Shown piece after piece: positions 3,437-45,960 of a DNA stretch of 64,000 bases (positions are counted from its first letter, which is position 1; each line of letters starts with the position of its first letter). The translations under genes and the position numbers were made by a program. Source of the stretch: an uncultured Latescibacterota bacterium (lineage in GTDB: Bacteria; Latescibacterota; UBA2968). Under the pieces are notes generated by a model. It saw nothing but the letters and a program-made list of their open reading frames with translations. It was not told where the DNA came from and did not search any database. Location: contig OY282377.1 of the NCBI GenBank assembly GCA_958295785.1, positions 5,210,896-5,274,895 of the forward strand. The letters run 5' to 3'.

Positions 3437-4462
3437 ATGAAACTATTGCAATTCGCACAACCCGGAAAAGGTGCTCGCTTGGGGCTTGTCGAAGGTAGCG
3501 ATGTTTTAGACCTGACCGCCTGCGGCCCGCATCCGGCGTCGCTTCACGACCTCTATTACCGCCACGGCGGAAACGAAAATGGCATCGCATCCGCCGTGCA
3601 GGCGATCAACACCCGCGATGCGCCGCGCCTCTCGCTCAACGACCTGTTGGACAGCGCGGGCGATTTCGACCAACCGCACCTGATCAGCCCGGCCACGGCG
3701 CCGAGGGATGCGCCGCACAAATTGCGGATTTGGCTGGCCGGCGTCACCCATGAAGACAGCGCGAAATTGCGCGAAATAGAAGCCAAACAGGCCACGGGTG
3801 AGACCGTCAATGTCTATGATCAAAAATACCGGGAATGCGCCCAAGGCGGCATGCCCGAACTTTTTGCCAAAAACGACAGCGTGGCCCTGGTCGGTCCCGG
3901 CGGCCCCATCTCGCGTCCAAACAACACCCGTCGCCTCGTGCCCGAAACCGAACTCGTCACCCTTTACGGCCTCAACGCCGCAGGTCAAATTGACCGGTTG
4001 GGATACACGGGCGGCAACGATTACACGGACAATGGCATCGAAGCCGAAAACCCGCTCAACTTGCCGCAGGCAAAAAACTGGTCTTATGGTTGCGCGAGCC
4101 TCGGCCCGTTGATGGTCGCGGATTCGGCCTACGACAGCCGCAGCGTGGTCGTCTCTTGCAAGGTGATTCGCAACGGGATGTGCATTGCCCACAAAGAAGG
4201 GCGCACCGGACAGAATCACCTCAACATGCCCGACGGCCTTTTTCACCTCGAGCGGTCGCTCTTTTCCCGCTTGCCCCTCGAGCCCGACACCCTGCAAATT
4301 CTCTATTGGGGCACGCCCATTGTGTTTTCCGACCGCGACCTCGAAACCGGTTTGCGCGAAGGCGACCGCGTGTGCATGGCGTTTGAAGGCATTGGCCCCC
4401 TCGAAAACCTCATCGTCCCGTTTCCACACACGGATCAACTGCAATGGCTTGAGAGGCAGTAG
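3437..4462 (+). CDS. Fumarylacetoacetate hydrolase (FAH) superfamily enzyme, AraD1/GguC-like
   Basis: The start at ATG 3437 (MKLLQFAQPG) gives 341 residues; the open frame reaches 3269 but the extra N-terminus is low-quality and lacks homology. The N-terminal region MKLLQF...GARLGLVEG and the central LPQAKNWSYGCASLGP, plus PETELVTLYG and YTGGNDYTDNGIEAENP, match the FAH fold with its metal-binding acidic residues. Family members cleave or dehydrate 2-keto-3-deoxy sugar acids and related beta-diketo acids; the GguC/AraD1 branch is tied to pentose oxidation. No sugar-acid pathway partners are adjacent, so the substrate is left open. Confidence 0.75.
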   Translation: MKLLQFAQPGKGARLGLVEGSDVLDLTACGPHPASLHDLYYRHGGNENGIASAVQAINTRDAPRLSLNDLLDSAGDFDQPHLISPATAPRDAPHKLRIWLAGVTHEDSAKLREIEAKQATGETVNVYDQKYRECAQGGMPELFAKNDSVALVGPGGPISRPNNTRRLVPETELVTLYGLNAAGQIDRLGYTGGNDYTDNGIEAENPLNLPQAKNWSYGCASLGPLMVADSAYDSRSVVVSCKVIRNGMCIAHKEGRTGQNHLNMPDGLFHLERSLFSRLPLEPDTLQILYWGTPIVFSDRDLETGLREGDRVCMAFEGIGPLENLIVPFPHTDQLQWLERQ

Positions 4463-39126: not shown

Positions 39127-40203
39127 TCAAATATATCCTTCTCGCGTCAAGAGTTCGGCCATGAGGACTGCGCCGCCGGCTGCGCCGCGCACGGTGTTGT
39201 GGCTGAGGGCGATGAATTTGTAGTGAAAAATGGGGTCTTCGCGCAGGCGCCCAAGGGTAATGCCCATGCCATTTCCCGCGTCGCGGTCCAAGCGCGTCTG
39301 CGGTCGGTCATCGCCTTTGAGGTACGCGAGAAATGTTTTGGGCGAGGAGGGCAGGCCCAATGCTCTGGGGTCGCTTTTGAAATTCTGCCAACGTGCGAGG
39401 ATGGCTTCGGCTTTGGGCTTTTTGTCGAACGAGACAGAGACGGCGGCCATGTGTCCATCGGTGACCGGAACCCGAACGCATTGGGCAGAAATGACGGGCT
39501 TGCGCGTGGGCACAATTTCGCCCTTGACGATGTGGCCCCAAATTTTGTGGGGTTCGCTCTCGCTTTTTTCTTCTTCTCCGCCGATATAGGGGATGATGTT
39601 GTCCATCATTTCCGGCCATGATGCAAAGGTTTCTCCCGCGCCGGAGATGGCCTGATAGGTGCATACAGAGGCTTTGGACGGGCCAAATTCTGACAAGGCG
39701 TGCAAGGCCGGGACGTAGGGCTGAATGGAGCAGTTGGGTTTGACGGCGATAAAGCCGCGTTGGACGCGCAGGCGTTTGCGCTGCGCCGGGATGATTTCCG
39801 CGTGCAACGGGTTGATTTCCGGCAAGAGCATGGGCACATCCGGGGTCCAGCGGTGCGCCGAATTATTGGAAATGACCGGGGTTTCCGCTTTTGCGTAATT
39901 TTCTTCGAGGGGGCGGATATCCTCTTTTTCCATGTCGAGGGCGCAGCAGACAAAATCGACCTGAGACGCAATGGCGTCGATTTCCCGCACGTTTTGGACA
40001 ACGAGGTCAGAGGCCGTTTGGGGCACGGCAACATCGGGTTGCGTCCATCGGCCTGTTACAGCTTCGCGGTACGTTTTGCCAGCGGAACGCGGACTGGCTG
40101 CCACCGCGGCGATTTCAAACCAGGGATGATCGGCGAGCAAGGTGACAAAGCGTTGCCCGACCATGCCGGTCGCGCCGAGAACGCCAACTTTGAGCTTGGA
40201 CAT
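39127..40203 (-). CDS. asd: Aspartate-semialdehyde dehydrogenase
   Basis: 358 residues from ATG 40203 (MSKLKVGVLGATGMVGQRFV), AAAGGAAAA upstream. NADP motif GATGMVG (10-16), catalytic Cys in AVKPNCSIQPYVPAL, and substrate residues in ISGAGETFASWPEM with HKIWGHI. Its length and KPNCSIQ motif match the archaeal/eukaryotic-type Asd clade. It reduces aspartyl phosphate toward lysine, threonine, methionine and diaminopimelate. It is preceded by a lysine riboswitch with a terminator, so transcription should fall when lysine is abundant. Confidence 0.95.
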   Translation of the reverse strand: MSKLKVGVLGATGMVGQRFVTLLADHPWFEIAAVAASPRSAGKTYREAVTGRWTQPDVAVPQTASDLVVQNVREIDAIASQVDFVCCALDMEKEDIRPLEENYAKAETPVISNNSAHRWTPDVPMLLPEINPLHAEIIPAQRKRLRVQRGFIAVKPNCSIQPYVPALHALSEFGPSKASVCTYQAISGAGETFASWPEMMDNIIPYIGGEEEKSESEPHKIWGHIVKGEIVPTRKPVISAQCVRVPVTDGHMAAVSVSFDKKPKAEAILARWQNFKSDPRALGLPSSPKTFLAYLKGDDRPQTRLDRDAGNGMGITLGRLREDPIFHYKFIALSHNTVRGAAGGAVLMAELLTREGYI

Positions 40204-40334
40204 CGGTTTTCCTTTCTGCGGATCTGAAATGCAACCACCTGAGAACACAGATAGATAAACACAAATAAATACGGATGGTTAGGCGTTTGTCCGTTCTGCA
40301 TCGCATCAGGAGTTGCAGGTGAATTTTGTTGCGA

Positions 40335-40377
40335 AAATAAAAACAGCCGGTGAGCCAAGGTAAAGGCCCGCCGACTG
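40335..40377 (-). terminator. Attenuator terminator of the lysine riboswitch
   Basis: In the asd sense, CAGTCGGCGGGCC (40377-40365) pairs, with G-T wobbles, with GGCTCACCGGCTG (40356-40344), followed by TTTTTATTTT (40343-40334). The loop contains most of the 3' strand of the aptamer P1 helix, giving the expression platform that links lysine binding to termination. Confidence 0.85.
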
Positions 40378-40571
40378 CCATGCGGAGACCACCCTCAAGA
40401 GAGCGCTTCACGGGATCATCGCCCGCGACAGTCCAGCAGATGTTATCTGCTGCCCCAGCCAAAAGCCCAGCGGAGGGACATTTGGCTTCGGCATCCCATC
40501 CCTTTCACCTGACTTACAGATCCGCTTTCTCGTGCCAGATTACTGATGATGGGACGCGCCTCTACCCTTGG
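40355..40571 (-). promoter_or_regulatory. Lysine riboswitch (L box) upstream of asd
   Basis: Reading the minus strand: P1 is CCAAGGGTAGAG pairing with CTTTACCTTGG (12 pairs incl. G-U). The conserved core follows: AGAGGCGCG, CAGTAATCTGGCACGAG, GTCAGGTGAAAGGGATG, GATGCCGAAG, TTTTGGCTGGGGCAGCAG and TCTTGAGGGTGGTCTCCGC. The GGTGAAAGGG, GCCGAAG, GGCTGGGG and GAGGGTGGTCTC blocks are L-box hallmarks. Aptamer of about 217 nt, normal for the class. It lies 150 nt before the asd start. Confidence 0.93.
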
Positions 40572-40630
40572 TGGAGAAAAACGTCACATATTCCCCATAT
40601 TTTGTCAACTTGAAAATGCGCGGTCGGTTG

Positions 40631-40823: not shown

Positions 40824-40861
40824 GGTTTCACATCTCGATTTTAGGGGTGGTGGGGTGGACT

Positions 40862-40924
40862 GACTGCTGACTGCTGACTGCTGACTGCTGACTGCTGACT
40901 GCTGATCGCTGATCGCTGATCGCT
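40862..40924 (+). repeat. 7-bp microsatellite, 9 units
   Basis: Six exact copies of GACTGCT (40862-40903) followed by three of GATCGCT (40904-40924). The two unit types differ by a swap of adjacent bases, so the array likely grew in two steps. It lies 75 bp upstream of the sulfatase homologue. Confidence 0.95.
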
Positions 40925-42748: not shown

Positions 42749-43639
42749 TTGAACTATGCGATTGAACAACATCTCGATCACCATCGCCTGCATCACATCA
42801 CCATTGGCACCGATGCCGCGGCGAGATTTGTGCGCGAGGTCGCAGATTTGTCTGAACAGCGATTGACATACATGCCCTATTTGCGATTGATCGCCGCCGA
42901 TAGCCTGCAACAAATCGTCGGCGTGGATTTTGCCGTGCAAATCAACGCGCTGGTGAGAGACCGCGCAACGGGCGGGTTCACCCTTGCGGTCGAGGGCGGG
43001 TTCGAGACGATGGATCAGCGCGTGGCATTTGGCACAGCGGTTTCGCACCTGATCGGGATGCCCAATTTTGACGATATGACCGGGAATTATTACGCCTGTT
43101 TTGAGGTGCGGGATACGGACGACAGCGATTCGTATTTGCGCCAAGCCTATCGCCTGTTCACGCTCCACACCGATGGCACGTACATCCGCGAGCGCACCGA
43201 TTGGATTTTGATGATGAAGATGGCCGAGCGCGATGCGGTGGGTGGCGAATCGCGCCTGCTACATTTGGACGATTGGGAGGCGTTGGAGCACTATGCCCGG
43301 CATCCGCTGGCCGCGTTGCCCATGACCTATCAATCGCCGCCGAGTAAGAATTATCCCGTAGTGATGGAGAAGCCGACGTTCTACGAACATCATGGCAAAG
43401 CCTGCGTGTGTTTTATCGATCAATTTGTGTATCCCAAAACCATCTCTCAGGCCCGATACCTGCGCGATCTGTCCGATTCGATGGAAGCGTCGTCTGGGGT
43501 AGTCTCGTTGCCCTTGCCGCCCGATCACCTCGTAGTGCTCAACAACCATTTCTGGCTACACGGGCGCGAGGCGTTTGAAAAACACCCCGACCTCTACCGC
43601 CTGTTGATGCGGCAACGGGGCTATTTTAGAGAGGAATGA
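42749..43639 (+). CDS. glaH: CsiD/GlaH-family glutarate 2-hydroxylase (Fe(II)/2-oxoglutarate)
   Basis: 296 residues, TTG start with AAAGGAGAGAC before it. CsiD landmarks run through the chain: VSHLIGMPNFDDMTGNYYA, SDSYLRQAYRLFTLHTDGTY with H140-T-D142 iron ligands, TDWILMMKMAE, LLHLDDWEALEH, FIDQFVYPKT and NNHFWLHGREAF with distal H271. GlaH hydroxylates glutarate to L-2-hydroxyglutarate in lysine catabolism. The usual partner lhgO and upstream gabDT genes are not in the window, so the pathway is elsewhere or the enzyme works on another diacid. Confidence 0.85.
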   Translation: MNYAIEQHLDHHRLHHITIGTDAAARFVREVADLSEQRLTYMPYLRLIAADSLQQIVGVDFAVQINALVRDRATGGFTLAVEGGFETMDQRVAFGTAVSHLIGMPNFDDMTGNYYACFEVRDTDDSDSYLRQAYRLFTLHTDGTYIRERTDWILMMKMAERDAVGGESRLLHLDDWEALEHYARHPLAALPMTYQSPPSKNYPVVMEKPTFYEHHGKACVCFIDQFVYPKTISQARYLRDLSDSMEASSGVVSLPLPPDHLVVLNNHFWLHGREAFEKHPDLYRLLMRQRGYFREE

Positions 43640-44310: not shown

Positions 44311-44475
44311 CAAAAGAAATCAAGCGTCTGAAACAGATGAGTGAACAGCCGATGGAGAGGAACGCCTCATGGATGTCCGCTCTGCGCTCGTCGCGCACCC
44401 GCAGTCGCGGAACTGGCGGAGCCAGGCCAGAGTCCGCTCAACGACCCACCGGAAGGAAAAAAAGAAAGGAAACGC

Positions 44476-44727
44476 ATGCCTATCCCCATCATTGACCCGT
44501 CACAAGCCACCACTAACGAAAGACTGACAAAGCTGGAAGCGATTGCCGAACAACACACACTCGCCCTTGCCGAGATCAAAGCACATATCGCAAGGGTTGA
44601 AGATCGCATCGCGAGGGTAGAAGATCACATGCAAAAGTCTTTTCGTTGGCTCGTTGGGATTCTCTTTACAATACTTCTCGCCATCTTGGGCGCGACAGTG
44701 ACTATTTTGCTGAACTTGCCCAAGTAA
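44476..44727 (+). CDS. Array unit 1: coiled-coil tail-anchored membrane protein, 83 aa
   Basis: Starts MPIPIIDPSQATTNERLTKL; the longer frame from 44341 is spacer. A conserved N-terminus (1-27), a helical coiled-coil segment (28-56) with one IARVEDR heptad module duplicated, then the helix WLVGILFTILLAILGATVTI (57-76) and LLNLPK end. Predicted to be a tail-anchored inner-membrane protein with the coiled coil in the cytoplasm. Function unknown. Confidence 0.85.
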   Translation: MPIPIIDPSQATTNERLTKLEAIAEQHTLALAEIKAHIARVEDRIARVEDHMQKSFRWLVGILFTILLAILGATVTILLNLPK

Positions 44728-44775
44728 CCCCCTCACCCCATCGCACATCCTGTATCCTCAAAAAAAAAGAAACGC

Positions 44776-45018
44776 ATGCCTATCCCCATCATCGACCCGT
44801 CACAAGCCACCACTAACGAAAGACTGGCAAGGCTTGAAGCGATTGCCGAACAACATAAGCAAGGCTTGATCAGTCTTGAAGATCGCATGGACAAGCGCAT
44901 GTCCAATATTGAAGATCACATGCAAAAGTCTTTTCGTTGGCTCGTTGGGATTCTCTTTACAATACTTCTCGCCATCTTGGGTGCGACGGTGACTATTTTG
45001 CTGAACTTGCCCAAGTAA
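44776..45018 (+). CDS. Array unit 2: 80 aa
   Basis: Same ends as unit 1. After IAEQH the 14-residue stretch found in unit 5 is replaced by KQGLISL (7), followed by the hendecad MDKRMSNIEDH. The only unit with a distinct coiled-coil sequence, so it may pair differently. Confidence 0.85.
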   Translation: MPIPIIDPSQATTNERLARLEAIAEQHKQGLISLEDRMDKRMSNIEDHMQKSFRWLVGILFTILLAILGATVTILLNLPK

Positions 45019-45076
45019 CCCCCTCACCCCATCGCCCCTCCCTGTGTATCCGTAAAGTAAAAAATAAAGGAAACGC

Positions 45077-45361
45077 ATGCCTATCCCCATCATTGACCCG
45101 TCACAAGCCACCACTAACGAAAGACTGACAGGGCTTGAAGCGATTGCCGAACAACACACACTCGCCCTTGCCGAGATCAAAGCACATATCGCAAGGGTTG
45201 AAGATCGCATGGACAAGCGCATGTCCAATATTGAAGATCGCATCGCGAGGGTAGAAGATCACATGCAAAAGTCTTTTGGTTGGCTCGTTGGGATTCTCTT
45301 TACAATTCTCCTCGCCATCTTGGGCGCGACGGTGACTATTTTGCTGAACTTGCCCAAGTAA
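45077..45361 (+). CDS. Array unit 3: 94 aa, longest coiled coil
   Basis: Carries both modules: heptad IARVEDR twice around the hendecad MDKRMSNIEDR. It is 18 residues (7+11) longer than unit 4. Reads FGWLVG rather than FRWLVG before the membrane helix, as does unit 5. Confidence 0.85.
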   Translation: MPIPIIDPSQATTNERLTGLEAIAEQHTLALAEIKAHIARVEDRMDKRMSNIEDRIARVEDHMQKSFGWLVGILFTILLAILGATVTILLNLPK

Positions 45362-45418
45362 TCTCCTTACCCCATCGCACATCCCTGTGTATCCGTAAGG
45401 TAAAAAAAAAGGAAACGC

Positions 45419-45649
45419 ATGCCTATCCCCATCATTGACCCGTCACAAGCCACCACTAACGAAAGACTGGCAAGGCTTGAAGCGATTGCCGAACAACACA
45501 CACTCGCCCTTGCCGAGATCAAAGCACATATCGTAAGGGTTGAAGATCACATGCAAAAGTCTTTTCGTTGGCTCGTTGGGATTCTCTTTACAATACTTCT
45601 CGCCATCTTGGGCGCGACAGTGACTATTTTGCTGAACTTGCCCAAGTAA
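45419..45649 (+). CDS. Array unit 4: 76 aa, shortest
   Basis: Minimal coiled coil HTLALAEIKAHIVRVEDHMQ without extra modules; one substitution (V for A) in the heptad. Its membrane helix and tail are identical to unit 1. Confidence 0.85.
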   Translation: MPIPIIDPSQATTNERLARLEAIAEQHTLALAEIKAHIVRVEDHMQKSFRWLVGILFTILLAILGATVTILLNLPK

Positions 45650-45696
45650 CCCCCTCACCCCATCGCACATCCTGTATCCTGAAAAAAAAGAAACGC

Positions 45697-45960
45697 ATGC
45701 CTATCCCCATCATTGACCCGTCACAAGCCACCACCAACGAAAGACTGGCAAGGCTTGAAGTGATTGCCGAACAACACACACTCGCCCTTGCCGAGATCAA
45801 AGCACATATCGCAAGGGTTGAAGATCGCATGGACAAGCGCATGTCCAATATTGAAGATCACATGCAAAAGTCTTTTGGTTGGCTCGTTGGGATTCTCTTT
45901 ACAATTCTCCTCGCCATCTTGGGCGCGACAGTGACTATTTTGCTGAACTTGCCCAAGTAA
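45697..45960 (+). CDS. Array unit 5: 87 aa
   Basis: Equals unit 4 plus one 11-residue module MDKRMSNIEDH. A longer frame from 45568 runs through unit 4 and its spacer and is rejected as a start. LEVIAEQH in place of LEAIAEQH. A strong terminator follows the array. Confidence 0.85.
   Translation: MPIPIIDPSQATTNERLARLEVIAEQHTLALAEIKAHIARVEDRMDKRMSNIEDHMQKSFGWLVGILFTILLAILGATVTILLNLPK

Follow-up and report, generated by a model that had tools for sequence, protein, structure and literature searches.

The asd gene of the uncultured Latescibacterota bacterium studied here is likely controlled by a cis-acting lysine OFF switch, in which the loop of an intrinsic terminator would act as the antiterminator by pairing with the 5′ strand of aptamer helix P1 (this pairing is called P1′ in the following). 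Within this reading, we infer lysine binding, transcript start, termination and the direction of control. It also seems, on balance, that the clade has an expression platform of its own, with the loop as an invading antiterminator in both asd and dapA switches, and that this one genome has deleted its dapA switch and kept the promoter, which would leave lysine control to asd alone. The analysed stretch of 64,000 nt is referred to as the window, and its features are collected in Table 1.

The original prediction had placed a lysine riboswitch on the minus strand before asd and had set a significant RF00168 match beforehand as the test. Such a match was obtained over the full length of the model and, at 97.2 bits, exceeds the gathering score (30). 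Nothing else in the window reached the gathering score of an Rfam family, and a search of the whole genome (5.66 Mb, single contig) with RF00168 found no second lysine riboswitch. By aptamer homology, the window RNA is a lysine riboswitch of the known class and is predicted to bind lysine.

P1 closes the five-helix junction with 8 pairs and one bulged U, formed by CAAGGGUAG and CUCUCUUG. Across the 21 asd leaders of the clade, seven of these pairs are always formed, and the remaining one is formed in 20. Although 99.4% of the cells in these leaders are paired, covariation support for P1 is slight because only one pair varies (G-U/A-U). In the L2-L3 kissing interaction, two-sided changes occur in three of the six columns; 83.3% of the cells are paired across the asd leaders, and the four inner column pairs are present in 21/21.

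Table 1 Features of the lysine riboswitch and the asd gene in the window
Feature	Position	Strand	Evidence
-35-like element TTGACA	40603-40608	(-)	TTGAC kept at like distance in asd and dapA leaders
-10-like element GACGTT, poor match	40580-40585	(-)	Sequence
Lysine riboswitch (L-box) aptamer	40393-40572	(-)	RF00168, 97.2 bits, E 1.5e-24, model 1-182 of 182
P1 5′ strand CAAGGGUAG, common to P1 and P1′	40562-40570	(-)	Pair counts on 21 asd leaders; duplex with terminator loop
L2 strand AGCGGA, L2-L3 kissing interaction	40521-40526	(-)	Pairs with 40474-40469
L3 strand UCCGCU, L2-L3 kissing interaction	40469-40474	(-)	Pairs with AGCGGA
P1 3′ strand CUCUCUUG, adjoins the 3′ side of the aptamer	40396-40403	(-)	Invariant in 21/21 asd leaders
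Intrinsic terminator hairpin (predicted), 36 nt, 8-nt loop UUUACCUU at 40364-40357	40343-40378	(-)	-23.2 kcal/mol
P1′ 3′ strand GCCUUUACCUUGG, terminator loop plus inner arm bases (putative antiterminator)	40355-40367	(-)	Complementary to 40571-40558
U tract TTTTTATTTT	40334-40343	(-)	Sequence, terminator detector
asd, aspartate-semialdehyde dehydrogenase, archaeal/eukaryotic type, 358 aa	39127-40203	(-)	TIGR00978, NF006416, PF01118, PF02774

Control by transcription attenuation, as originally proposed, is supported by the predicted intrinsic terminator between aptamer and asd. From its U tract, it is about 130 nt to the asd ATG at 40203. A terminator hairpin with U tract was detected in 42 of the 43 clade leaders, and that of the remaining leader (L025) was set by hand. 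Upstream, the motif TTGAC lies 37–44 nt 5′ of the P1 strand in 21/21 asd leaders and 38–45 nt in 22/22 dapA leaders. Because this spacing is kept across the leaders, we place the transcript start at or just before P1, probably near 40573. The original prediction had named an asd start downstream of 40335 as contrary evidence, and the TTGAC motif instead points to the position near 40573. Neither of the two elements assigned here appeared in a generic scan for promoter and terminator consensus sequences; both assignments rest on conservation and folding.

The target gene was correctly predicted as an asd of the archaeal/eukaryotic type. It scores 335.5 bits with TIGR00978 (asd_EA; cut-off 301.2) and 456 bits with NF006416, over its cut-off, whereas the bacterial-type model TIGR01296 gives 88.3 bits, below its cut-off of 324.2. 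Besides lysine, the asd step feeds threonine, methionine and diaminopimelate. As TIGR00978 matches only this one gene in the genome, control of asd should touch all four products. The gene downstream of asd (38992-37997) is on the opposite strand, and hence asd looks monocistronic. As a target, asd is less unusual than had been claimed, since lysine riboswitches are known before asd-led operons in Staphylococcus pseudintermedius, Clostridiales and Thermotogae (PMC5584792).

Divergent from the riboswitch-asd unit is a sulfatase-family gene (PF00884; 40999-42405, plus strand). In at least four genus mates (L002, L006, L010 and L012), an ORF with the start of this sulfatase, MNMVVICCDTFRAD, also lies beside riboswitch and asd. 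The sequence that separates the sulfatase gene from the riboswitch promoter contains a perfect 7-bp tandem repeat, CTGACTG, with 6.6 copies and longer-period forms (40860-40924). Further along the plus strand, 2.5 kb from the riboswitch, is a gene for the glutarate dioxygenase GlaH/CsiD (42749-43639; NF002814, 393 bits, cut-off 333; PF08943); GlaH belongs to lysine breakdown. Four tandem ORFs (44341-45960, plus strand) encode similar short proteins beginning with MPIPIIDPSQATTNERL and having a hydrophobic stretch at the end; a 278-bp repeat unit occurs at 45242-45831 within this four-ORF stretch.

Among relatives, RF00168 was found in 23 of the 60 genomes searched, the window's own included. 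All 21 genomes of the window's order carry it, compared with 24 of 64 in the phylum sample. The named contigs with the nearest asd genes are filed under Latescibacterota, and some under Gemmatimonadota or as unclassified. By their downstream gene (tblastn), the 43 riboswitches of the clade fall into 21 before asd and 22 before dapA, with dapB next in several cases. The riboswitch of L153 precedes a dapA-like start, as judged by eye, and was added to the dapA set, which thus has 23 members; two of them, L003 and L153, come from another family of the phylum. Most genomes with riboswitches have one asd copy and one dapA copy, and the window genome has the asd copy only. G010 has a dapA-type riboswitch only, perhaps owing to an assembly gap, as this genome is in about 470 contigs; G047 and G092 have one riboswitch each, of the dapA type. 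In one family of this class, all 25 genomes (G022-G046) lack an RF00168 match, which points to gain or loss of the riboswitch inside the class. RF00168 was likewise absent from five named Latescibacterota, Gemmatimonas and Handelsmanbacteria genomes with a close asd (L041-L044 and L047).

The original prediction had described P1 as a 12-pair helix with its 3′ strand in the terminator loop. The long complementarity is real and amounts to 13 pairs with one bulged G, but this helix is P1′ and not P1: the P1 3′ strand CUCUCUUG follows right after the aptamer, and the 8-pair P1 that it forms in the asd leaders of the clade rules out the loop helix as P1. P1′ takes the P1 5′ strand plus the junction core AGAGG and hence cannot form alongside the folded aptamer. 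On its other side, it occupies the entire loop of the terminator together with bases of the inner arm, and should therefore hinder terminator closure. P1′ competes with P1 and is best read as an antiterminator. In the window, P1′ has p ~0.001 against shuffled loop regions; in a duplex-energy test on the whole platform, 10 of 200 shuffles were as good (0.05), a marginal value.

For comparison across leaders, we paired the 12-nt strand without gaps to the central 26 nt of each terminator and compared the best score with those from 1000 shuffles of these 26 nt. At p < 0.05, 18/21 asd leaders, 12/23 dapA leaders and 1/39 Firmicutes leaders passed, and all 18 passing asd leaders were at 0.005 or below. 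The three failing asd leaders are those of G012, G013 and G020, so that six of the nine genera pass, and 11 of the 23 dapA leaders gave no P1′ signal. An earlier anchoring, which had taken the wrong GAGG in some Firmicutes leaders, gave 18 asd leaders, 13 dapA leaders and 2/39 controls; the controls are thus close to chance under both anchorings. The 39 controls consist of 18 leaders minus L145, L146 and L149, plus 30 loci minus 6, with those dropped having no detected terminator; the 30 loci of this second batch were taken out of about 150 sites listed.

Uninterrupted Watson-Crick runs of at least 6 pairs in P1′ occur in 19/21 asd, 12/23 dapA and 0/39 Firmicutes leaders. With its own loop, the asd strand forms at least 9 Watson-Crick pairs in 18 of 21 cases, compared with 0.12% of the combinations when asd strands are set on Firmicutes loops. 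P1′ was counted by script; the leader alignment is out of register in the loop.

Position 5 of P1 discriminates between the two helices. Ten asd leaders have A there and 11 have G; with its partner in the terminator loop, this base forms A-U in 10/10 and G-C in 11/11. The P1 3′ partner of the same position is U in all 21 leaders and can pair with A or G. As this P1 partner is constant, the change in the loop tracks P1′ rather than P1. At least two changes of the position-5 label are forced by the starred branches of the asd protein tree. The window differs at this position from the other members of its genus; G014, from another genus, likewise has A-U. When strands and loops were exchanged, A5 strands formed 10 Watson-Crick pairs with A5 loops versus 7.9 with G5 loops. 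G5 strands formed 8.8 pairs with both loop types and showed no preference, because G also pairs with U when wobble pairs are counted. G047 and G092, from a distant family, have C at position 7, opposite a G in the loop. P1 seems to be changed there as well, and hence position 7 does not discriminate P1 from P1′.

We also calculated minimum-energy folds of growing transcripts for the 21 asd leaders. In these folds, P1 is present during the first half of the hairpin, P1′ forms once the loop is out, and the terminator forms when the hairpin is nearly complete. P1′ reaches at least 6 pairs in 20/21 leaders. For the window, it is present while 18–34 of the hairpin's 36 nt are out, and the terminator takes over from 35 nt on. 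In 10 of the 21 leaders, including several genus mates, energy alone does not let the terminator replace P1′, even with 6 nt transcribed beyond the hairpin, and in those leaders the outcome would have to be decided by the ligand. Among the Firmicutes controls, the 5′ strand formed at least 6 pairs with the terminator hairpin in the growing folds of 7/39 leaders (L144, L148, L157, L159, L160, L164 and L165). Switching by the P1 5′ strand may be wider than the clade. What distinguishes the clade within our sample is the loop-centred pairing site, not the use of the 5′ strand as such.

The proposed mechanism takes its ligand and its OFF logic from B. subtilis lysC (PMC6614840). The transcript would begin roughly where the P1 5′ strand begins. 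Lysine binding would lock the junction core and P1, formed by CAAGGGUAG and CUCUCUUG; the loop would then have no partner, and the terminator would close, stopping transcription about 130 nt before the asd start codon. Without lysine, the emerging terminator loop, which would mimic the P1 3′ strand, could invade the weak, bulged P1. It would then pair with the P1 5′ strand and AGAGG as the 13-pair P1′ and keep the terminator open, and asd would be transcribed.

At the second biosynthetic locus of this genome, the corresponding switch is missing. The dapA gene (G000:C1:3246681-3247709) has the same upstream gene as in the genus mates, 79–84% identical, and the sequence TTGACAGTCCGATTTGCGTTGGCTACCTT, nearly identical to the dapA promoter region of the mates, starts 74 nt 5′ of its ATG. 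Reading the leader directly (locus L129, G000:C1:3244000-3251000, minus strand, ~3710-3790), we found aptamer and terminator to be absent. When 7 kb around dapA were searched with every Rfam family at E values up to 10, RF00168 was not among the matches, which also rules out a degenerate sub-threshold riboswitch there. The dapA switch thus appears to have been deleted in this genome, with an assembly error as the alternative, and asd would consequently be its only lysine-riboswitch gene.

The absent dapA riboswitch, which 10/10 genus mates have, could be taken to mean that the asd copy is decaying as well and has lost lysine sensing. We regard this as very improbable, as the asd copy retains P1, the AGCGGA/UCCGCU kissing loops, the terminator and P1′, its 97.2 bits lie within the 78–109 bits spanned by the clade riboswitches, and the altered P1′ base pair in the window is matched on both sides. 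A lysine ON switch, or translational control, in place of lysine-induced termination is also quite improbable. ON logic has been stated for some lysine riboswitches (PMC2258182), and the leader of about 130 nt 3′ of the terminator could house further elements. However, the target gene is biosynthetic, which speaks against an ON switch, and P1′ uses the AGAGG core, so that it excludes the ligand-binding fold at the same time as it opposes the terminator.

A lysine OFF switch could also work in the classical way, with an antiterminator made when the 5′ arm of the terminator pairs with the P1 3′ strand or the nucleotides directly behind it, as in B. subtilis lysC (PMC5836843). The loop match would then be incidental, left for instance by an ancient duplication of P1. 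Watson-Crick runs of at least 6 pairs between the P1 3′ region and the terminator 5′ arm were found in 0/21 asd and 0/23 dapA leaders, but also in only 1/39 Firmicutes leaders, so that this test is blunt. The loop base opposite position 5 has changed together with the 5′ strand at least twice, and nothing would require this of a relic. Hence, we consider the classical arrangement unlikely here.

The preferred reading, an OFF switch with a loop-borne antiterminator, shares with B. subtilis lysC the full-length RF00168 aptamer and, by assumption, the logic of P1 and terminator versus antiterminator. In lysC, lysine-bound P1 lets the terminator form, and the ligand-free form is the antiterminator (PMC6614840). 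The 3′ half of that antiterminator also belongs to the terminator hairpin, where it lies in the stem (PMC5836843), whereas in the window it is the terminator loop, with bases of the inner arm, that is complementary to the P1 5′ strand and the junction core. As in the Thermotoga, Clostridiales and Staphylococcus cases, a riboswitch of the lysine class stands before asd as the first gene; those asd genes lead multi-gene lysine operons (PMC5584792), in contrast to the apparently monocistronic asd of the window. The ZTP riboswitch, an example of the strand-exchange riboswitches, similarly has an aptamer strand that the expression platform can take over. In that case, the aptamer is invaded by nucleotides further downstream when ligand is absent, and the terminator forms (PMC10907184), whereas here the invading loop is proposed to cause antitermination. 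In the literature searched, with the original structure papers outside its reach, we found no description of a lysine riboswitch whose terminator loop pairs with the 5′ strand of P1; the excerpts of PMC5584792, PMC2258182, PMC10907184, PMC5836843, PMC6614840, PMC10687018 and PMC11477304 do not describe it. The aptamer class is known and so is the kind of target; the expression platform is conserved in the clade, and we found no description of it.

These results document lysine riboswitches in a lineage for which a full-text search yielded just one paper, and that paper concerns another phylum. They provide a compact, testable case of one aptamer class wired to termination in a different way, and the natural A-U and G-C variants are ready-made compensatory mutants. 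With the dapA switch apparently lost here and kept in ten genus mates, this genome would represent a natural deletion experiment on the step of a branched pathway at which lysine control is required.
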